Position numbers and translations under genes: made by a program
Notes under the pieces: generated by a model
Seen by the model: only the letters and a program-made list of their open reading frames with translations
Databases searched by the model: none
What the model was told of the DNA's origin: nothing
In this document: piece after piece, positions 4,410 to 40,436 of the stretch
Layout: every line of letters begins with the position of its first letter
How positions within the stretch are numbered: position 1 is the first letter of the stretch
Virus record (IMG/VR): IMGVR_UViG_3300044776_000069
Span: 1 to 42,672 of that record
Source: a virus
DNA: 42,672 nt
Direction: 5' to 3' (one strand)

Positions 4410-4763
4410 TCATCCCTTGTTGAAAGCACGCGGACGCTCGCTCGCTTCCTTCGCAGTCACCACACGCGGGTTGCACTTCGGGCACGTCGATCGCGATCCC
4501 GTCGCCGAGTACTTCGCACCGCAGTCGTCGCATTCCTTGGTGCGCGGCCATCCCCCGCCCTTTCCAGCGCCCTTGTTCGGCGGCGGCGCCTGGTCCGCGT
4601 ACCCCTTAACCGCCAGCTTCCGCCCACGCTTCACCGCTGTACCCCCCCCATTTTTTTCATCGCCGTCGACGAGCTTCTCCAGCACCGCGATCGCGTCACC
4701 GAGCTGCGCGTGCTCAACGCGCATTTCATCGAGAGCCGTCTTGAGGGACTCGCGCGCGCTCAT
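4410..4763 (-). CDS. Small zinc-ribbon protein
   Basis: The product is 117 aa. I chose the ATG at 4763 because it overlaps the upstream stop as ATGA. The N-terminal 35 residues look helical (RESLKTALDEMRVEHAQLGDA). A flexible Gly/Pro/Lys-rich linker follows, then a zinc-ribbon with CDDC (78-81) and CPKC (94-97). The tail is basic. It sits between the lipoprotein-like gene and the exonuclease in the early operon. Function unknown; a DNA- or RNA-binding accessory of the recombination module is possible but is inference. Confidence 0.75.
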   Translation of the reverse strand: MSARESLKTALDEMRVEHAQLGDAIAVLEKLVDGDEKNGGGTAVKRGRKLAVKGYADQAPPPNKGAGKGGGWPRTKECDDCGAKYSATGSRSTCPKCNPRVVTAKEASERPRAFNKG

Positions 4764-5575
4764 CGCTTGTACCCCATGTCGCCGCCTCCCCACCACGACC
4801 ACGAAATCGGTTCATAGTAGTCCTCAATCATACCGCCTCGCCCACCGCCCTTGCGTTCCTTTGGCGGGGGGGGTGGTGGTGTCGAATATCCACAGATGCA
4901 CGGGTTGATTGGACACCAGTCTGCGTGGCCCACCGCTTCAGGCGCACTCGCCATAGCAGACAGCGTGGAGAGCAGCGCATGCCGCTGGCTCGCCGTCTCA
5001 CCGATTGGCTCCAACGGGACGCCGGTCGAGCTAACAGGAGCTTCTTCATGCGGGCAGTTGCATGGCAAGCAGTAGACCGTCGGGAACCCCTTGATGGCGC
5101 AATTCTCGAACGTATTGCTCGACCCGCCGTCGCACCACCAGCTTGAGTAGATGCGGCGGTACTGGATCGTCGCGTGGTGAGTCCCGTACTCGACGCAGAT
5201 ATTCGCGTAGGGAATCTCGGCCGTGAAGACCCACAGGTTGTTGCCGAGGTTGGTGGACGTGAATATCGGGTTCGTGTCCGGGTCCTCGTAGAGACTGCAC
5301 TGGACGACACAATTTGGCGGCCAGTAGAACCACAGCTTTGATTGCGGGGCCGGACTCGCGATCGTGTTCGACGGAAACTGGATATACCACGTGACGCGCC
5401 CCCACTTGTTCCCGTCGTCGTCGCAGAATGATTCCCACGTTTCATTGCTCAAGACGGCCGAGCCAGAACAGCCCGTTGTGACCACGCGCGTCGGGCCAAC
5501 GAGATGCGGCGGCGAATCGGGGCCGGGGTCACCACAGGAAATAGCGATCAGGACTATCAACAGCAAGCGCTTCAC
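4760..5575 (-). CDS. Secreted Cys-rich lipoprotein-like protein
   Basis: The product is 271 aa from a GTG at 5575 with AGGAAG about 8 nt upstream. Residues 1-13 form a signal sequence (MKRLLLIVLIAIS) followed by Cys14, resembling a lipobox, although Ala at -3 is atypical. The mature part is rich in Cys, Trp and Tyr, with several Cys pairs (for example CLPCNC and CPINPCICG). It ends in a polyproline run and a Gly/Arg-rich tail (residues about 232-250). I recognise no domain. A secreted, probably disulfide-bonded protein in a recombination operon is unusual. A role at the host envelope, such as superinfection exclusion, is conceivable but unproven. Confidence 0.75.
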   Translation of the reverse strand: MKRLLLIVLIAISCGDPGPDSPPHLVGPTRVVTTGCSGSAVLSNETWESFCDDDGNKWGRVTWYIQFPSNTIASPAPQSKLWFYWPPNCVVQCSLYEDPDTNPIFTSTNLGNNLWVFTAEIPYANICVEYGTHHATIQYRRIYSSWWCDGGSSNTFENCAIKGFPTVYCLPCNCPHEEAPVSSTGVPLEPIGETASQRHALLSTLSAMASAPEAVGHADWCPINPCICGYSTPPPPPPKERKGGGRGGMIEDYYEPISWSWWGGGDMGYKR

Positions 5576-6988: not shown

Positions 6989-6994
6989 CTTGAC
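6969..6994. promoter_or_regulatory. Palindromic operator-like element spanning two divergent -35 boxes
   Basis: A perfect 8-bp inverted repeat, GTCAAGGG (6969-6976) and CCCTTGAC (6987-6994), with a 10-nt AT-rich centre. It contains the -35 hexamer of the rightward promoter P2 and that of the leftward promoter P3. A protein bound here would control both directions at once. Confidence 0.55.
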
Positions 6995-7018
6995 GGAAAA
7001 TGTGCGCGCGGATAATGT
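6975..7018 (+). promoter_or_regulatory. Promoter P2 for the helicase-methyltransferase gene (leaderless)
   Basis: The block GGACAAAATTAGCC (6975-6988) leads to -35 TTGACG (6990-6995), a 17-nt spacer, and -10 TAATGT (7013-7018). Seven nt separate it from the ATG at 7026. It is 19 of 21 bases identical to P1 across the extended -35 block. No ribosome-binding sequence precedes the ATG. Confidence 0.65.
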
Positions 7019-7025
7019 TGTCCGC

Positions 7026-9209
7026 ATGGATTATCAACAGTTCCTAGAGAGCAAGGCCGTCACTAACCGCGCGACCGGTGTCATCGCCGGGGAATTACCA
7101 CCGCACCTGTTCCCGTTCCAGCGGGACATCGTGCGCTGGGCTCTCGCCCGCGGGCGGGCGGCCATCTTCGCGGATTGCGGACTTGGGAAGACGATCATGC
7201 AGCTTGAGTGGGCGGCCCGTATCCCCGGTCGCGTCCTGATCTTGACCCCGCTCGCCGTCGCCGCCCAGACGGAGCGGGAAGCCGCGCGGTTCGGCATCGA
7301 GGGCGTGTCCCATGCGCGCCGCTCGGACACGGGGGCAAAGATCGTCGTCACGAACTATCAGATGGTCGATCACTTCGATCCGTCCGCGTTCGCCGGTATC
7401 GTCCTCGACGAGTCCAGCATCCTCAAGGCCTTCGATGGCGCCACCCGTACTAAGTTGATCGAGCTGTTCGCGAAGACGCCGTATCGGCTCGCCTGCACGG
7501 CGACGCCGGCCCCGAACGACTTCATGGAACTTGGGAACCACTCGGAGTTCCTCGGCGTCATGCCGCGCTCCGAGATGCTCTCCATGTTCTTCGTCCACGA
7601 TGGGGGAGAGACCCAGAAATGGCGCGTGAAGGGTCACGCGCAAGACGCCTTCTGGCGCTGGTGCGCGTCGTGGGCGGTGATGATGCGCAAGCCCTCGGAC
7701 CTCGGCTACGATGACGATGGCTTCGACCTGCCGCCGATCCGATTCCATCGCCACGTCGTGCGCGCGGAGCACGCGGATGGGTTCCTGTTCCCGATGCCGG
7801 CATCGAGCTTGCAGGAACGCTTGGCCGCGCGTCGCGACACGACCGACGGACGATGCCTCGCCGCTGCTGAGATAGCGAACCAGCACGACGGCCAGACGCT
7901 CGTCTGGTGCAACCTGAACGCCGAGTCGGACGCACTGACGGACGCGATCAACGGCGCCGTGGAGGTACGGGGGTCGGACACCGACACGGAGAAGGAACGG
8001 GCGATGGAGAACTTCTCCGCTGGCTCGGCCCGCGTCCTCGTCACGAAGCCGACCATCGCGGGGTTCGGGATGAACTGGCAGCACTGCAACAAGGTGATCT
8101 TCGCCGGGCTCTCGGACTCCTATGAGCAGTTCTATCAGGCGATCCGTCGGTGCTGGCGATTCGGTCAGGTTAACCCGGTGGACGTGCACATCGTGACGGC
8201 CGACACCGAGGGGGCGGTCGTCGAGAACATCAAACGCAAGGAAGCAGACGCGGCCAGGATGGCCGAGAGGATGGTGGCGCACATGTCTGATCTCAACAAG
8301 GAATCGCTCGCTGGCGCGGTGACGAGGACCACCGACGCCTATCAACGACGGACGGAATCAGGCGACGGGTGGACGCTGACCATCGGCGACTGCGTGGACG
8401 TCCTCGCCGAGATGGCGGATGAGTCCGTTGACTTCACCGTCTACTCGCCGCCTTTCGCATCCCTCTATACCTACTCCGCGAGCGAACGCGACATGGGAAA
8501 CTGCGCCGACGATGCGGCCTTCTACGAGCACTACCGGTTCCTCGTCCGCGAGTTGATCCGCGTGACCAGGCCCGGGCGCCTGCTCTCGTTCCACTGCATG
8601 AACCTTCCGACGAGCAAGGTCAACTTCGGCTACATCGGTATCCGTGACTTCCGCGGCGAGTTGATCCGACTGCACGAGGCAGAAGGGTGGATATATCACT
8701 CCGAGGTCGTGATCTGGAAGGACCCGGTGACCGCGATGCAGCGCACGAAGGCGCTCGGGCTCCTGCACAAGCAGTTGAAGAAAGACTCCTGCCTGAGCCG
8801 CCAGGGGATACCGGACTACCTCGTCACGATGCGGAAGCCCGGCGATAATCTCTCGCGCGTCGAGCACACCAACGAGACGTTCCCGGTGAGCGAGTGGCAG
8901 CGGATCGCGTCCCCGGTCTGGGCGGACATCAACCCGTCGGACACGCTGCAATTCCGATCAGCGCGAGAACACAAAGACGAGCGGCACATCTGCCCGCTGC
9001 AGATCGAGGTGATCCGACGCGCACTCCGGCTGTGGAGCAACCCCGGTGACCTGGTGCTCTCCCCCTTCGCCGGGATCGGATCGGAGGGCTATGTCGCTCT
9101 CCAGATGGGGCGACGGTTCGTCGGGGCGGAGCTGAAGGAGTCCTACTTCTCGCAGGCCTGCCGGAACTTGGCGGCGGCGAAGGTCCAGTTGGAGCTCGAT
9201 GCTGGATGA
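7026..9209 (+). CDS. SNF2-like helicase fused to N4/N6-type DNA methyltransferase
   Basis: The product is 727 aa. The ATG at 7026 is preferred; an in-frame TTG at 6990 lies inside the -35 box. The N-terminal half is a superfamily 2 helicase: ADCGLGKT (49-56), VLDESS (126-131), TAT (158-160), and a C-terminal lobe ending in QAIRRCWRFGQ. The second half is a beta-class amino-methyltransferase with order IV then I: catalytic SPPF (474-477) and AdoMet-binding FAGIG (681-685). It may methylate phage DNA against host restriction while translocating; the target is unknown. I see no paired restriction nuclease. This is one of two genes on the plus strand, divergent from the early operon and convergent with the late array. 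Confidence 0.9.
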   Translation: MDYQQFLESKAVTNRATGVIAGELPPHLFPFQRDIVRWALARGRAAIFADCGLGKTIMQLEWAARIPGRVLILTPLAVAAQTEREAARFGIEGVSHARRSDTGAKIVVTNYQMVDHFDPSAFAGIVLDESSILKAFDGATRTKLIELFAKTPYRLACTATPAPNDFMELGNHSEFLGVMPRSEMLSMFFVHDGGETQKWRVKGHAQDAFWRWCASWAVMMRKPSDLGYDDDGFDLPPIRFHRHVVRAEHADGFLFPMPASSLQERLAARRDTTDGRCLAAAEIANQHDGQTLVWCNLNAESDALTDAINGAVEVRGSDTDTEKERAMENFSAGSARVLVTKPTIAGFGMNWQHCNKVIFAGLSDSYEQFYQAIRRCWRFGQVNPVDVHIVTADTEGAVVENIKRKEADAARMAERMVAHMSDLNKESLAGAVTRTTDAYQRRTESGDGWTLTIGDCVDVLAEMADESVDFTVYSPPFASLYTYSASERDMGNCADDAAFYEHYRFLVRELIRVTRPGRLLSFHCMNLPTSKVNFGYIGIRDFRGELIRLHEAEGWIYHSEVVIWKDPVTAMQRTKALGLLHKQLKKDSCLSRQGIPDYLVTMRKPGDNLSRVEHTNETFPVSEWQRIASPVWADINPSDTLQFRSAREHKDERHICPLQIEVIRRALRLWSNPGDLVLSPFAGIGSEGYVALQMGRRFVGAELKESYFSQACRNLAAAKVQLELDAG

Positions 9210-9556: not shown

Positions 9557-10381
9557 TCAGCGGACCAGCGCCAGCCCGACGCCGCCAGAAACCGCATCGT
9601 CCGCGTAGTTCACGATCCCGTTGGCCTGGCCGGCATGCATCTGCCCGAAGAGCGAGATGTCGTAGGCTTCCGCCAGCGGGATATAGACCTCGTAGTCCTG
9701 GTAGGACAATCCGAGGTTCACGACGACGCGAATCGCCCCGGGGATTTCCGCGATCGCCATCAGCTCGCCGCCGGCGTCCTCCCAGAGCGAGAAGTCGATG
9801 AACTCCTTGATCCCGTCGGTCCCCATGCCGGTCGACAACACGTACCACCCGCGCACGTAGCCCGTGAGGTACAGCGTCTTCCCGTTGAACGGGACCTCGT
9901 AGGCGAACTTGGATTCCAGTAGCACGCGATCAATCGAGGCGGAGGCCGAGTCCGTGCCGGATGAGTTGTGCAGCCAGCCGACACGCCCGCCACGAAAGAG
10001 CCCGGTCGCGTCTTCATTCACGCGCACGAACGCTTCCGGCAGGTAGTTGTTCTCGTTGATCGGGCTCGACTCCGCCCCGACCGGCCAGTTGACGGCACGC
10101 CAGGTGAACGCGAGATACGGGTCCAGGGACACCCCGCCGATCACGACGGGTGCGCGGAGCACGCTCGCCGCCATCGAGGCTTGCGCTTTCAGGTAGGGAG
10201 CGTTGGCCTGGTCCCATGACTCGCTCGAGCTGTAGTCCGTCGCGATGTACATGGGCAGGTGTTGCCGGAACCGCACGGGCTCCCGCCCCTGCGCCCGCGC
10301 GAGCGAGCACAGGGACAGGCCGACGACGAGGATCCCCGCTACCAGGCAGCTAACGGCTGCCAGTCGGTTACCGGCGCGCAT
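9557..10381 (-). CDS. pldA: OMPLA-like outer-membrane phospholipase A (phage-borne)
   Basis: The product is 274 aa from ATG 10381 (TGATG overlap with the upstream gene; a GTG at 10384 is the alternative). Residues 1-30 are a signal peptide ending ARA|QG. The mature protein follows the PldA/OMPLA plan: FRQHLPMYIATDY near 38-50 (E. coli has a QHKPNY-type start), LAFTWRAVNW (90-99), ENNYLPEAF (110-118; E. coli has ETNYEPEVF), and the active-site segment WLHNSSG (136-142), with H138 and S140 in the catalytic His and Ser positions. D151 replaces the third catalytic residue (Asn in E. coli). It ends with an outer-membrane-style beta strand. OMPLA hydrolyses outer-membrane phospholipids on destabilisation. 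Next to the endolysin, it probably breaches the outer membrane during lysis. Confidence 0.88.
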   Translation of the reverse strand: MRAGNRLAAVSCLVAGILVVGLSLCSLARAQGREPVRFRQHLPMYIATDYSSSESWDQANAPYLKAQASMAASVLRAPVVIGGVSLDPYLAFTWRAVNWPVGAESSPINENNYLPEAFVRVNEDATGLFRGGRVGWLHNSSGTDSASASIDRVLLESKFAYEVPFNGKTLYLTGYVRGWYVLSTGMGTDGIKEFIDFSLWEDAGGELMAIAEIPGAIRVVVNLGLSYQDYEVYIPLAEAYDISLFGQMHAGQANGIVNYADDAVSGGVGLALVR

Positions 10382-10569
10382 CACTGCGGCACCCCGGGCG
10401 CCGGGAGTTTGAGGCGGATACCGACGAGCCCGAGCCCCTCGGCAAACTTCGTGATCGCTGCGTTCCAGTCGATGTCGCCACCATCGGAGAATGAGGACAC
10501 AATCGGAATGAGCGCCGCGATCATCAGGGCCAGACCGCTAAGAATTGCTTTTGACTTGAGCCAGTTCAT
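10381..10569 (-). CDS. Small membrane protein, possible holin
   Basis: The product is 62 aa with an ATG at 10569 and an AAAGG/GAGGG-rich stretch upstream. One membrane span (ILSGLALMIAALIPIVSSF) follows a short basic N terminus. The rest is amphipathic (WNAAITKFAEGLGLVGIRL). Location between the endolysin and the phospholipase suggests a lysis role such as a holin or pinholin, but single-span proteins of this size have many other functions. Confidence 0.65.
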   Translation of the reverse strand: MNWLKSKAILSGLALMIAALIPIVSSFSDGGDIDWNAAITKFAEGLGLVGIRLKLPAPGVPQ

Positions 10570-10639
10570 GTCGACCTTTCACCCTCTGCACGTTTCCTCT
10601 TCCTGTTCTCGGCATCCCCCGTGCCAAGCGTCGGGATTC

Positions 10640-10714
10640 TGGTGGCGGGGGCGGGGATCGAACCCGCGTCCTCCGGGTTATGGGCCCGGCGCTCTACCTC
10701 TGCGCTACCCCGCT
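10640..10714 (-). tRNA. tRNA with CAU anticodon, initiator (fMet)-like, CCA encoded
   Basis: The 75-nt cloverleaf reads on the minus strand. The acceptor 5' strand is AGCGGGG (10714-10708) and the 3' strand CCCCGCC (10650-10644), leaving an A1:C72 mismatch, with discriminator A73 and encoded CCA. The T arm is canonical (GCGGG, TTCGATC, CCCGC). The anticodon stem CCGGG/CCCGG gives the three consecutive G:C pairs (29-31:39-41) typical of initiators. The loop CCCATAA has anticodon CAU and C33 instead of the nearly universal U33. The D stem has one G-A mismatch. An unpaired 1:72 and the GGG/CCC stem argue for initiator rather than elongator Met or Ile2. Its 5' end overlaps the endolysin stop. Confidence 0.85.
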
Positions 10715-11196
10715 CCTGTCGCTGGCGTCAACGCGGCCACGAGCCGCGCGCGCACAATATCCATGTTCATCGCCGGGCAGTCTTTCGCGACGCCCGGAAT
10801 CTCACGGTGCCCCAGCACGTTTTCCGGCTTGATCCCGTAGCGCAGGCACCACGCGCGGAGTACGCGGTCCACCGACTCGATCTGCGCCAACGTGTAGATG
10901 CCGTTCCCGATCAGGCACACTGCGAGGCTCCGGCTGTTCCAGCCTTGCGCGTGCGCGCCGATCTCCTGCGGCTCGAGCTCCGCGTCCATGTCGAGCGAAC
11001 GACCCGCTTGGATTGCGCCGTCGTAGAGCGTGTCGCGGCGATGCTTCGCGCGATCCTCGGCGGTGATGTAGCCCGAGAGTATGACGGCGTGATAGCCACA
11101 ACCCGCCCAGCCGCGCGCGAGGTGCCACTTGTTGATATCGAGCACCGTCCCCCACTCGGACGCGGAGCAATGGACGATGATGTGTGTCGGTGTCAC
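10705..11196 (-). CDS. N-acetylmuramoyl-L-alanine amidase endolysin (T7 lysozyme-like)
   Basis: The product is 163 aa from GTG 11196, overlapping the upstream stop as GTGA, with GAGG upstream. It is an Amidase_2 domain with no extra binding domain: zinc ligands H9 (IIVHCSAS), H130 (GHREI) and C140 (KDCPA), plus Y35/H36 (GYHAVI) and K138 corresponding to the T7 active-site residues. It cuts the amide bond between MurNAc and the stem peptide. There is no signal peptide, so a holin is needed. Its stop codon TAG (10707-10705) coincides with bases 8-10 of the downstream tRNA, so RNase P cleavage would remove the stop from the message. Confidence 0.95.
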   Translation of the reverse strand: MTPTHIIVHCSASEWGTVLDINKWHLARGWAGCGYHAVILSGYITAEDRAKHRRDTLYDGAIQAGRSLDMDAELEPQEIGAHAQGWNSRSLAVCLIGNGIYTLAQIESVDRVLRAWCLRYGIKPENVLGHREIPGVAKDCPAMNMDIVRARLVAALTPATGAG

Positions 11197-11567
11197 GCGC
11201 GCTCAACCTCGTGGACGCCGGGCTGCATGTAGTCGGTCGGCGGCAGTTCCTTCGACCAGTCCTTCGTCTCGTGATACGTGCAGCCGGTTCCTTGACAGAG
11301 AATCGAAACGCGCCCGTGGTACTGGTCGTCGTCGATTTCCCCGCGCCCCTTGCACTGCGGGCAAACGAAAACGAGCAAGGAAGGCTGCTCGATGGCGAGC
11401 ACGAGATGGATTTTGGCGCGGCTGCCGACTGGCCACCCTCGATCAACGTGATCGAACTCACGACGAATGCGATCAAAAGCCTCTTCCAGCGCGCCTCGCC
11501 CCGTCCGATTGGTTCGGCACACGTCGGTGATGATCTGATGCGATGCGGCAATGCCGGGGATGTTCAT
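11193..11567 (-). CDS. Small protein with DnaJ-like zinc knuckles
   Basis: The product is 124 aa. ATG 11567 overlaps the upstream stop as ATGA; a longer frame to 11672 runs through the neighbour. The C-terminal half contains CPQCKGRG and, 15 residues on, LCQGTGC, close to the CxxCxGxG repeats of the DnaJ zinc domain. The N terminus has an alpha-helical region (GALEEAFDRIRREFDHVD). Location in the lysis segment does not explain it. Function unknown. Confidence 0.7.
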   Translation of the reverse strand: MNIPGIAASHQIITDVCRTNRTGRGALEEAFDRIRREFDHVDRGWPVGSRAKIHLVLAIEQPSLLVFVCPQCKGRGEIDDDQYHGRVSILCQGTGCTYHETKDWSKELPPTDYMQPGVHEVERA

Positions 11568-11809
11568 GGCAACACCGGCACCCATCGGTCCGCTTCTTGT
11601 TCCACAAGTTCGACCGGCGTGGAGTTGATGCAAGCCGTAAAGAGAAAGGTAACGTGCTTCAGGATGTCCCACTGACCTATCCCTACTCCGCGTTCAAACC
11701 TGGTTTGTCCGCGCGCCGATCCGTCGAGGCTTTCATAGCTGAACTCAAGGAACGGCTCTCCATCCGGTAGCTGGTTGTTGAGCACCACCGTTTCGATTAA
11801 GACCTTCAT
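11564..11809 (-). CDS. Hypothetical protein
   Basis: The product is 81 aa, ATG 11809, with a purine-rich GGAAGGAAAT upstream and ATGA overlaps at both ends. The composition is mixed alpha/beta (KVLIETVVLNNQLPDGEPFLEFSYES, then KHVTFLFTACINSTPVELVEQE). I recognise no family. Coupling on both sides is the main evidence that it is real. Confidence 0.65.
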   Translation of the reverse strand: MKVLIETVVLNNQLPDGEPFLEFSYESLDGSARGQTRFERGVGIGQWDILKHVTFLFTACINSTPVELVEQEADRWVPVLP

Positions 11810-11991
11810 GATTTCCTTCCTTCCATCGACTTCCAGAGCATCCCCGCGACCACGCCCCATTGCGCGATCAGCGCCAGCGTCACGCTCTGCGCGACCTTCG
11901 GCCCGTGGTAGGCGACGGCGCAGGTTCCAAGAAGTAGCGTCGTACATAGTGTTACCGCAAATAGCAGCTCGATCTTCTCTCGGTGCGTCAC
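11806..11991 (-). CDS. Two-span membrane protein, holin candidate
   Basis: The product is 61 aa from GTG 11991 (GTGA overlap). It has a short basic N terminus (THREK), first span (LLFAVTLCTTLLLGTCAVAY), polar turn (HGPKVAQS), second span (TLALIAQWGVVAGMLW), then a basic tail (KSMEGRKS). This is the layout of class II holins. It lies three genes upstream of the endolysin in the same operon. I consider it the best holin candidate, ahead of the single-span protein at 10381-10569. Confidence 0.7.
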   Translation of the reverse strand: MTHREKIELLFAVTLCTTLLLGTCAVAYHGPKVAQSVTLALIAQWGVVAGMLWKSMEGRKS

Positions 11992-12539
11992 CGAAGCACC
12001 TTGATCTCTCGGAGCAATTGGTCCGCTCCGATCTCCTGCCCGCGACGGATGCACATGAGCCATATCGCAGGCGTCTCATCGGGGTGCGCCCCGAACCGCG
12101 CGGACTCCTGACAGAGCGCCGCCATTCCGAATCTAAGCTCGATGATGCCCCACAACACCACGTCATCGGCTGGCAGTTCCGGGTCGTTCACGAGTCGCCG
12201 AAACTCACCGAGCATGGCCGGATCCGGGACGTAGCCGGCTTGTTCGATCATCGCCGCCAGTGCGACCGTGTTGATCCGGTAGTCACTGCCGTGGTCGGCC
12301 CTCCCGCGTACCGCAGCCGACGCCTTCGAAGCCTCCAACCAGGTCGCGACCTTGACGGTCTCGATCTCGATGCGCTGGAGCTGCGCGCGAACTGGATCGA
12401 CGACCGCGGTCTCGAACTCGGCGATCGCCTTCGCGAGCCGTGCATCCCACAGCTTCACCGCGACGCCGTAAAATATCCCGCCCCACGCGAGGATGATCGC
12501 GTTAATGAGTGCGATTTCTTTCAGGCCCAATTCGTTCAT
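11988..12539 (-). CDS. Membrane-anchored helical protein
   Basis: The product is 183 aa, ATG 12539. One N-terminal membrane segment (EIALINAIILAWGGIFYGVAVKL) is followed by a helical, probably coiled-coil stretch (LAKAIAEFETAVVDPVRAQLQRIEIETVKVA, in two helices) and a globular C-terminal half with two Cys. It is GTGA-coupled to the holin candidate. An i-spanin-like role could be considered from the topology, but the C-terminal half is longer than usual and there is no o-spanin partner. Function unknown. Confidence 0.65.
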   Translation of the reverse strand: MNELGLKEIALINAIILAWGGIFYGVAVKLWDARLAKAIAEFETAVVDPVRAQLQRIEIETVKVATWLEASKASAAVRGRADHGSDYRINTVALAAMIEQAGYVPDPAMLGEFRRLVNDPELPADDVVLWGIIELRFGMAALCQESARFGAHPDETPAIWLMCIRRGQEIGADQLLREIKVLR

Positions 12540-13210: not shown

Positions 13211-15115
13211 TCAGTCCCCTTCCAATTCGACGGGTGGATTCTCTATCACGATGCCCGACGTATCGTCAACGAACTCCGCGGGATGGTTGGCGATCGCAAT
13301 CCGTTCCGCGTCCGTCACGAGTTCAACGGGCGGGTTGTTGAGAATGAGCGGCGGCCCCTCGGCCGTGATGGTCACGTCCAAGAGCACCGCCCCTTCGCCG
13401 AGGCTCAGCGAGAGCGCCGACGTCGCGCCGCCGAGGCTCCCATCCGCGAGGTACGGCGCGCTCGTCGTAATGGCCAGCACGGCCGTCTCCGATCCCACCT
13501 GCCCGGCCTTGCGCACGAACAGATACGCGCGACCGTTCTCGAACGCGCGGCGGTACACGTTGCCCTTCACCCACGCGCCGGCGACCAGTTCATACTCGCC
13601 GGTCGCGGCCCCCAGTCCAGCGGCCGCGGTATTGAGCAGGTTCGGCTGCTCCCAGGTGGAAATATCTTCGGGCGCGTCGACGGCGGTGGCGAAGCGGGCG
13701 CACAGACCCGCGCGCGCGGCCATCAGGAACCATGCCGCAATCGCGATCTTCGCCCGATCCTTCTGCGCCTGGCTGGGGGAGGCCGTGGTCAGGAGGCCGT
13801 GTGCCAAGACGGTTCTCTCGGTGGTGACAGCGACGAGGGTCGCCCAGCGCGATTCGCACTGCTCGGCGGTCAGGTTCGGCTCGTCGTTGGCGTAGCCGAG
13901 TGCCTGCTGGGCCTCGATCAGCCGGCTGGCGGCGATCAGCGCCACGGTATCGGCGTCGACGTTCTGCATGAACGCGAGGTTCCCGAAGTTCGGGAAGACC
14001 TGGGGCGGTGGCGTGACCACACCCGGCACCCATGGGAAAGCGGCGCGCACCGCGTCCTGCACGGCGACGAACGCGGCAATGCACGCCGCCGAGTAGGCGG
14101 CGCCGTTCCCGGTGTACTCGGTGCTGGTCAGGATGTTCTCGTGGCCGACGTCATAGGCCGCATACCACATCGTCAGGTCGACCTGGACGGCGTCCATGAT
14201 CATGCCGTCATGCTGTCCAGGAGGCCCTCCGTACATGAGCCCCTGGAGCATCTTCACCGCGCGGCTCGCCTGCCACGCGACGTAGGGCGCGTGCCCCATG
14301 TTCATGACGTAGTAGCCTGTGAGGCCGCCACTTGGAAGCTGCCGGCGAACTCCGGCGTGGTGAATGTAGCCAGCCTCCGCGCCTGCGCCGGCGAAGGCGT
14401 TCCAGAGCGCCGCATCGCCCGGCGAAATCAGCCGATGCAGGTTGTAGGTGTAAAGCCTCGTCTCCGGGAACTCTGCGTGGATCACGATCGCGTCGTCGTC
14501 AATCCGATGCATAACGATCTTGTTACTCTCCGCGCGCTCCTCATTCTCCGCGAGCGTGGTGGCTCGCCCGACGACTTCGCTGTAGCTCTCGAGGATCGGC
14601 AGGTCTTGCAGGTAGTCGTAGGCGAGTTCCGACACCATGATCGTCGCGTCGAAGTCGTTCGCGCCTGCGCAGAAACAGGAATATTGAAAACACAGGGTGT
14701 TGATCGCGCCCGCGCCCTGGATATTGAGCCCGGTGATCAGCGGAAACTCAATCGCGACCGGAGCGAATGACGGGATCGCTATATCGACGTAGGTCTCGGC
14801 GAGTTGGGCCCCACCCTGCTGGTCTAGAATGACGACGTATAGGCGCAGCGATGGCGCACCGATCACACTGAATGCCATCGCCACGCGGCCGCGGATCCTG
14901 ACCGCGTTCACCGTCTCGCAGTCCGCCGGCCGGCCGACTCGGTGGGTATCCTTCAACGAGCGATCCCAATTCTGGCAGATGATCGAGGTGGAGTCGCTGC
15001 CATCCGAGACGATCAGACTATGGATCGGCGGGAGCTCGGGCGGTATGGTGCCGGTGTTATCGGTCCAGTCTGCTGGTTCGGCCGTTCCACCCGCTCGCAG
15101 GTCGTGAAAGATCAT
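13211..15115 (-). CDS. Large tail-module protein, glycoside-hydrolase-like (GHL15-like)
   Basis: The product is 634 aa, ATG 15115 overlapping the tail-tip stop as ATGA. The N-terminal 180 residues are beta-rich, as in fibre head or carbohydrate-binding domains. The centre resembles the TIM-barrel of the hypothetical glycosyl-hydrolase family 15: YVMNMGHAPYVAWQA, then HDGMIMDAVQVDLTMW with acidic residues where a catalytic site would lie, and near the C terminus RRAFENGRAYLFVR, like the closing motif of that family. The tail (VELVTDAERIAI, VELEGD) contains two short NNPPVEL/ENPPVEL repeats. It probably sits at the tail tip and cleaves or binds a host glycan. Catalysis is inference. Confidence 0.6.
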   Translation of the reverse strand: MIFHDLRAGGTAEPADWTDNTGTIPPELPPIHSLIVSDGSDSTSIICQNWDRSLKDTHRVGRPADCETVNAVRIRGRVAMAFSVIGAPSLRLYVVILDQQGGAQLAETYVDIAIPSFAPVAIEFPLITGLNIQGAGAINTLCFQYSCFCAGANDFDATIMVSELAYDYLQDLPILESYSEVVGRATTLAENEERAESNKIVMHRIDDDAIVIHAEFPETRLYTYNLHRLISPGDAALWNAFAGAGAEAGYIHHAGVRRQLPSGGLTGYYVMNMGHAPYVAWQASRAVKMLQGLMYGGPPGQHDGMIMDAVQVDLTMWYAAYDVGHENILTSTEYTGNGAAYSAACIAAFVAVQDAVRAAFPWVPGVVTPPPQVFPNFGNLAFMQNVDADTVALIAASRLIEAQQALGYANDEPNLTAEQCESRWATLVAVTTERTVLAHGLLTTASPSQAQKDRAKIAIAAWFLMAARAGLCARFATAVDAPEDISTWEQPNLLNTAAAGLGAATGEYELVAGAWVKGNVYRRAFENGRAYLFVRKAGQVGSETAVLAITTSAPYLADGSLGGATSALSLSLGEGAVLLDVTITAEGPPLILNNPPVELVTDAERIAIANHPAEFVDDTSGIVIENPPVELEGD

Positions 15116-39567: not shown

Positions 39568-39957
39568 CTAGATCAGCGCGAGTTTCGTATAGTGCGGATC
39601 CGATGCCGACCATGCCGCGTTTCGCCTTGCCTTCACCTTGAGCCGCCATGCGGTCGCCGCCGCGCGATGTGGCGCCCGATCCGCCTCGCGACGTGCGCGT
39701 TGTAGGTCCAGAATCACACGTCGGCGCTTGCAATAGTCCGCGCGCTTCGCCGCACGGTGGCGATCGATGTGGCGCGCGTAGTAGCGCTTCATGATCGCGC
39801 TCTTCATGACCGGATGCTTCGCGGCGTAGCGCATCGAGGCCGCGCTTCGCGCGTGCTCGGGACACCAGCGCGCGCGATGCGAGCGCATCAGGTGCACTGT
39901 CTGTTCGCACCCGAGCGCGACGCAGCGTTGGCAGATGATCGCGTATCGCGGCCTCAA
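39568..39957 (-). CDS. Small basic zinc-finger-like protein
   Basis: The product is 129 aa from TTG 39957 (TTGA overlap with the deformylase stop). It has Cys pairs (IICQRCVALGCEQ; WCPEHARS) near the N terminus and a long Arg/Lys-rich tail. It may bind nucleic acid. The start is uncertain because of the TTG; an internal ATG is possible. Confidence 0.6.
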   Translation of the reverse strand: MRPRYAIICQRCVALGCEQTVHLMRSHRARWCPEHARSAASMRYAAKHPVMKSAIMKRYYARHIDRHRAAKRADYCKRRRVILDLQRARREADRAPHRAAATAWRLKVKARRNAAWSASDPHYTKLALI

Positions 39958-40436
39958 ACTAACCCACCCGCGATCCTCGCCAGCTTCGGCTTGAGCATCA
40001 GTCTTCTCGCGTGGTCGAGGTGGTCGATGAAGAGCACGCCGTCGAGGTGATCGATCTCGTGCTGCAGGACGCGCGCCGATCGCCCGTACATCGTGATAGT
40101 GCGCGCGCCGCCCTTCAGATCGCGATAGGCCACGAGGACACTTTCAGCGCGTCTCACGTGCGAAACCACTCCTGGGATGCTCAGACACCCCTCCTCATCG
40201 AGGACCGTCTCTTTCGAACGCTCGATGATCGCTGGGTTGACCATCTCGTGCGGCGGGAAGCGGAGCACGATCAAGCGCATGTCGAGACCGACCTGCGGCG
40301 CGGAGAGCCCGACGCCCTTGTGCTTGACCATCAACTCCGACATCCGGCGCGCCGTCTCGCGCAGCGACTTGTCGAACTCCGTGATCTCGCTGGCACGAGC
40401 GCGCAGGATCGGATCGCCGTAGTAGACGAGCTTCAT
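39954..40436 (-). CDS. def: Peptide deformylase
   Basis: The product is 160 aa, ATG 40436 (ATGA overlap). All three deformylase motifs are intact: GVGLSAPQ (41-48), EGCLS (82-86) with metal ligand C84, and HEIDH (126-130). It removes the formyl group from nascent protein N termini. The C-terminal helix is short, as in compact phage versions. Marine phages are known to carry deformylases. Here it may work with the initiator-like tRNA at 10640-10714. No signal peptide; cytoplasmic and ribosome-associated. Confidence 0.95.
   Translation of the reverse strand: MKLVYYGDPILRARASEITEFDKSLRETARRMSELMVKHKGVGLSAPQVGLDMRLIVLRFPPHEMVNPAIIERSKETVLDEEGCLSIPGVVSHVRRAESVLVAYRDLKGGARTITMYGRSARVLQHEIDHLDGVLFIDHLDHARRLMLKPKLARIAGGLV

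Follow-up and report, generated by a model that had tools for sequence, protein, structure and literature searches.

How does a tailed phage remove the outer membrane of its host when no spanin pair is visible among its lysis genes? This question is raised by the window analyzed here, the whole 42,672-base stretch of IMG/VR virus record IMGVR_UViG_3300044776_000069 (positions 1 to 42,672), in which a homolog of outer-membrane phospholipase A (OMPLA/PldA) is encoded close to an endolysin. Kongari et al. reported that 91 of 677 phages (about 13%) lack an identifiable spanin and regarded the route such phages take instead as unresolved (PMC6139136). Disruptins provide one answer, and according to a 2026 paper it is still open whether these, or outer-membrane disruptors of another kind, are encoded by spanin-less phages (PMC12819732).

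A PldA-like gene ends the late gene run of a tailed phage

The source of the window is a tailed phage, and the core genes present encode the terminase large subunit, major head protein, tape measure, minor tail protein, RecT/RecE and RusA. On the minus strand, the tail genes are followed in order by a 183-aa protein, a two-span 61-aa protein, two small ORFs, an amidase, a tRNA-Met, a 62-aa protein and pldA, the final gene of the late run. Plus-strand genes for a helicase–methyltransferase fusion and a DUF7220 protein run convergently toward pldA; the fusion is a single 739-aa ORF at 6990-9209, in which a DNA helicase is joined to a DNA methyltransferase, and the DUF7220 gene comes next. The features of the lysis region are as follows:

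9557..10381, minus strand: OMPLA/PldA-like outer-membrane phospholipase A homolog (PF02253, hhalign, AlphaFold, Foldseek)
10381..10569, minus strand: 62-aa membrane protein with one strong TM span, holin/antiholin candidate (ORF, hydropathy)
10640..10714, minus strand: tRNA-Met (CAT) (ARAGORN; Rfam tRNA, 58.4 bits)
10705..11196, minus strand: T7-type N-acetylmuramoyl-L-alanine amidase, the endolysin (PF01510, Amidase_2, E=3.8e-15; phrog_822 amidase, E=3e-24)
11806..11991, minus strand: 61-aa protein with two TM spans, class II holin-like (ORF, hydropathy)
11988..12539, minus strand: 183-aa protein with an N-terminal TM span (ORF, hydropathy)

The T7-type amidase carries no export signal. The stop codon of the 62-aa ORF overlaps the pldA start (TGATG), and its product has no family and no match among phage records. 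For the 61-aa protein, whose GTG start overlaps the stop of the upstream ORF, the flanking charges give an N-in/C-in topology, and no family match reached the cut-off. The 183-aa protein, with neither a family nor a phage-record match, is possibly a holin or an inner-membrane partner; the charges flanking its TM span favor a cytoplasmic C-terminus. The amidase and the adjacent TM ORFs make up a holin–endolysin cassette, in which the small membrane proteins are holin candidates by topology only. The preliminary description had named the same neighbors, a holin-like small membrane protein, a T7-type amidase and a two-span holin candidate, and our annotation agrees with it.

Other genes of the window were noted in passing. 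The tRNA-Met gene is complete and lies inside the lysis run, between the amidase and the 62-aa ORF, overlapping the amidase gene at its end. Close to the lysis genes, 13211-15115 encodes a 634-aa protein whose match to glycosyl hydrolase 15-like (GHL15) is weak and under the cut-off, and the phage encodes its own peptide deformylase at 39954-40436 (phrog_2890, E=3e-41).

The PldA-like protein is a divergent PLA1-family homolog

The PldA-like frame is intact over 274 codons, with ATG 10381 as the probable start and GTG 10384 as the alternative (ORF 9557-10384). Its product scores 30.5 bits against Pfam PLA1 (PF02253; curated cut-off 27 bits), matches solved OMPLA structures by sequence (phmmer E=0.001) and aligns over residues 38-275 with a bacterial PldA alignment that leaves out the window protein (hhalign 98.7%, E=3e-16). 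Supplied with 44 homologs, AlphaFold predicted a 12-strand barrel (pLDDT 84), for which the best eight Foldseek matches in the PDB, with E about 1e-10 to 1e-9 and TM 0.62-0.70, were without exception OMPLA; in a viral predicted-structure library, the top matches were other barrels only, with no OMPLA among them. On the window sequence alone the model reached pLDDT 39, and because it fails without the PldA alignment, it is homology that supports the barrel fold. A Sec signal peptide, ending near ARA-QG, can be read at the N-terminus. Both the OMPLA/PldA-like identity and the signal peptide had been claimed at the outset, with structure prediction and a PldA-family HMM search proposed as checks, and the results bear out each of these claims. 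Judged by its sequence, ORF 9557-10381 is a true PLA1/OMPLA homolog.

The catalytic His and Ser, at 138 and 140 counted from the ATG (139 and 141 from the GTG), are both invariant in the 44 PldA homologs, and the SSP serine and the calcium-site serine are retained; equivalents of Ser106 and Ser152 are present. Relative to the reference triad His142-Ser144-Asn156, the third residue is Asp (D151, ATG numbering) in place of Asn156, a state also found in 5 of the 44 homologs and in the T4-like phage protein described below. HxSNG, which is conserved in bacterial PldA (PMC5043575), reads HNSSG in the window protein, the N being present in 44/44 sampled homologs. In SPFR, Asn replaces an Arg that is invariant in the sample, and GYG is replaced by GQA, a difference that is biased because the homologs were collected with the GYG pattern. 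The preliminary description was thus correct in calling H138 and S140 intact, and it had passed over the Asp-for-Asn substitution and HNSSG. Given these departures, the activity of the window protein cannot be assumed, and the protein could be catalytically weak or dead. Because the HxSNG motif is altered, we file it as a divergent PLA1-family homolog and not as a proven PldA enzyme.

No spanin pair is visible in the window

Scanning the window for lipoboxes in six frames turned up no plausible sense-strand lipoprotein in the vicinity of the lysis genes, and the window showed no Rz/Rz1-type pair, in agreement with what had been described before. No lipobox lipoprotein with an inner-membrane partner or a C-terminal TM span lies near the endolysin. 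The LGTC of the 61-aa ORF was considered as a lipobox and rejected, as it falls within the first TM span and is not a standard lipobox. A spanin elsewhere in the genome had been named as a finding that would count against the proposal; the search returned no pair and one distant lipoprotein-like candidate in the early region, from a linear contig that may not be the whole genome. This candidate, at 4760-5575(-), is a 271-aa ORF with a lipoprotein-like start (MKRLLLIVLIAISC-GD), many cysteines and no phrog match.

The window pldA is probably a long-resident phage gene

GC3 and codon usage of pldA resemble those of the structural genes, and in a 61-row tree, where the median branch is 0.26 changes per column, its own branch measures 4.5. 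Together, these features point to long residence in phages, and they make a recent capture or an assembly error look unlikely. PldA is not represented in PHROGs. Close relatives of the window protein were absent from viral contigs, genome contigs, phage records and 398 + 192 bacterial genomes (E 1e-8), with a weak bacterial match as the sole exception, and no close phage relative emerged through the capsid, terminase or amidase.

Elsewhere in IMG/VR, PldA was found on only two other contigs, L023 and L082. L023 was rejected as a phage gene: it is a full-length, bacterial-type pldA at a contig end or prophage edge, and it groups with bacterial proteins. Records filed as phage PldA in INPHARED (among 50,697 phage records) were likewise set aside, as they look like misfiled bacterial contigs; those opened, with H63 and H65 lying outside this set, carry housekeeping-type genes. 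CAKLQH020000031.1 and MT839379.1 (L011 and L012) are examples of phage-filed records that look bacterial, by rpiA, ilvA and trkG or as a Bacteroidales-like contig.

PldA also accompanies an endolysin in a T4-like phage

The remaining contig, L082, is a 151-kb record whose PLA1 protein was found by a scan with the bacterial PldA alignment. The record encodes a T4-type major capsid protein (gp23) at 285.8 bits, a match found in 0/14 control genomes, together with tail tube and head closure genes. Its PLA1 protein (255 aa, 133 bits) carries the motifs HESNG and SRSWDR, and its pldA gene is followed downstream by genes for a response regulator, a coiled-coil protein with a single span and an endolysin (phrog_465, E=6e-26). 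This endolysin match is the sole one in the record and lies 1.2 kb from pldA. The response-regulator receiver protein, encoded at L082:10815-11273 in the interval from PldA to the endolysin, is a possible regulator of lysis timing. Among the structural genes, L082:4166-6955 encodes two proteins that look radical-SAM-like by eye (CxxxCxxC motifs).

The window phage and L082 have capsids of different families and likewise endolysins of different families, and the PldA–endolysin pairing is an independent recurrence in an unrelated T4-like phage, seen so far in these two phages only. Under random placement, proximity this close would arise in about 5% and 3% of cases for the two phages, a rough estimate that ignores module structure. 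A homolog of either endolysin lay within about 5 kb in 0/57 bacterial pldA loci. In the tree the branches of the two phage PldAs are both very long, and the proteins may or may not share a phage ancestor. The preliminary description had suggested a synteny search for OMPLA beside amidases in other phages; L082 provides PldA beside a phrog_465 endolysin, and PLA1 was absent from the seven viral amidase-relative records searched.

In the 20 kb around the L082 pldA, no coding-strand ORF with a lipobox was found, the only match being antisense; the genome has two lipoprotein-like genes, both far from the endolysin. The coiled-coil single-span protein adjoining the endolysin gave a weak Rz-like match, which was rejected because the same profile matched 14/14 control genomes and is thus not specific.

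Proposed mechanism and alternative explanations

We are inclined to think, with confidence only just on the positive side, that the phage OMPLA acts as an outer-membrane disruptor beside a holin and a T7-type amidase in a Gram-negative host. The inner membrane and the peptidoglycan would be breached by the holin and the cytoplasmic amidase. The PldA-like protein, exported by Sec at a late stage of infection, would be inserted into the outer membrane as an inactive monomer; as the holin and amidase disturb the envelope, phospholipids would reach the outer leaflet, the barrel would dimerize with calcium and cleave them, and the resulting lysophospholipids would break the outer membrane, the job normally done by spanins. 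We infer phospholipase activity, dimerization, timing and a lysis role for the window PldA. Lipid hydrolysis in place of spanin-driven fusion, as originally suggested, is plausible, and the recurrence in L082 strengthens it. The family and predicted fold, the export-type N-terminus, the retained His/Ser, the place of the gene and the lack of a spanin near the lysis genes speak for it; the altered motif residues, the lipoprotein-like ORFs in both genomes and the possibly incomplete contig speak against it. In T4-infected E. coli, activation of host phospholipase A was described in the 1960s-70s. Perturbation of the envelope activates host OMPLA, which works with calcium and through dimerization (PMC5043575), and the title of a reference in PMC4353708 reports that bacteriocin release protein triggers OMPLA dimerization.

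The place of pldA, last before the convergent boundary with the early genes, is a usual site for cargo. Bacterial pldA genes also occur on plasmids and beside IS elements, and L023 shows a bacterial-type copy at a prophage edge. The gene could accordingly be late cargo (a moron) whose product remodels the outer membrane while the phage infects or lysogenizes its host, for instance to exclude other phages or to alter the lipid balance of that membrane, and its adjacency to lysis genes would then be incidental. We regard this as unlikely, as pldA overlaps a membrane ORF of the lysis run, combines core-gene-like codon usage with a very long branch and has the same endolysin neighborhood in the unrelated T4-like phage.

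The departures from motif residues also suit two readings without catalysis. In one, the barrel would have no enzymatic part to play and would serve as an anchor in the outer membrane, forming an unusual two-part spanin together with a phage protein of the inner membrane, for instance the 183-aa ORF product; an outer-membrane protein has been suggested as a possible o-spanin (PMC6139136), and the L082 coiled-coil protein beside the endolysin, with its weak Rz-like match, would fit. Retention of the catalytic His and Ser and the calcium-site Ser, the unspecific Rz-like profile and the charges around the 183-aa span make this improbable. The other reading, to which we give equally little credence, takes the gene as a degenerate or inactive captured host pldA, either without a role or with a role in virion entry. 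HNSSG and the Asn-for-Arg change would agree with it, whereas the intact frame, the phage-like codon usage and the conserved His/Ser argue against decay, and a virion role is unlikely because a signal peptide is ill-suited to a virion part.

Relation to known systems and significance

Returning to the phage OMPLA as an outer-membrane disruptor, the window protein shares with OMPLA/PldA (E. coli 1qd6, Salmonella 7ezz) the 12-strand barrel, here as a predicted fold, the export signal, His/Ser, SSP and the calcium-site Ser, at about 20-25% identity; unlike them, it is phage-encoded beside an endolysin, has Asp for Asn156 and HNSSG, and sits on a very long branch. With spanins (lambda Rz/Rz1, T1 gp11) it would share the third lysis step, outer-membrane removal after the endolysin, but the window has no lipoprotein or type II partner, and lipid hydrolysis is proposed instead of membrane fusion. 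Like the disruptins (phiKT), it is proposed to disrupt the outer membrane in spanin-less phages; those are short amphipathic peptides, whereas this is an enzyme-family barrel. In release through bacteriocin release protein, OMPLA is also engaged in the exit of large cargo from Gram-negative cells, but there the enzyme is the host's own. Mycobacteriophage LysB (Ms6) has a fold different from that of OMPLA, a mycolyl-arabinogalactan substrate and mycobacterial hosts. It is a proposed functional analog, as a lipid-ester hydrolase of a lysis cassette that serves the third lysis step (PMC5707550).

With its pldA, the lysis run is a variant form of the cassette that phages use for lysis. The preliminary description knew of no phage lysis system built on OMPLA, and we likewise found no description of a phage OMPLA beside an endolysin in the literature searched, most subscription journals lying outside its scope. 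It is possible, with doubt slightly outweighing belief, that phage OMPLA joins spanins and disruptins as a third class of outer-membrane disruptor, recruited by unrelated phages and finishing lysis by phospholipid hydrolysis. With two unrelated phages each encoding it near the endolysin, OMPLA is a concrete candidate for an enzymatic route in spanin-less phages; if this is true, some phages may breach the outer membrane of bacteria through digestion of its lipids.
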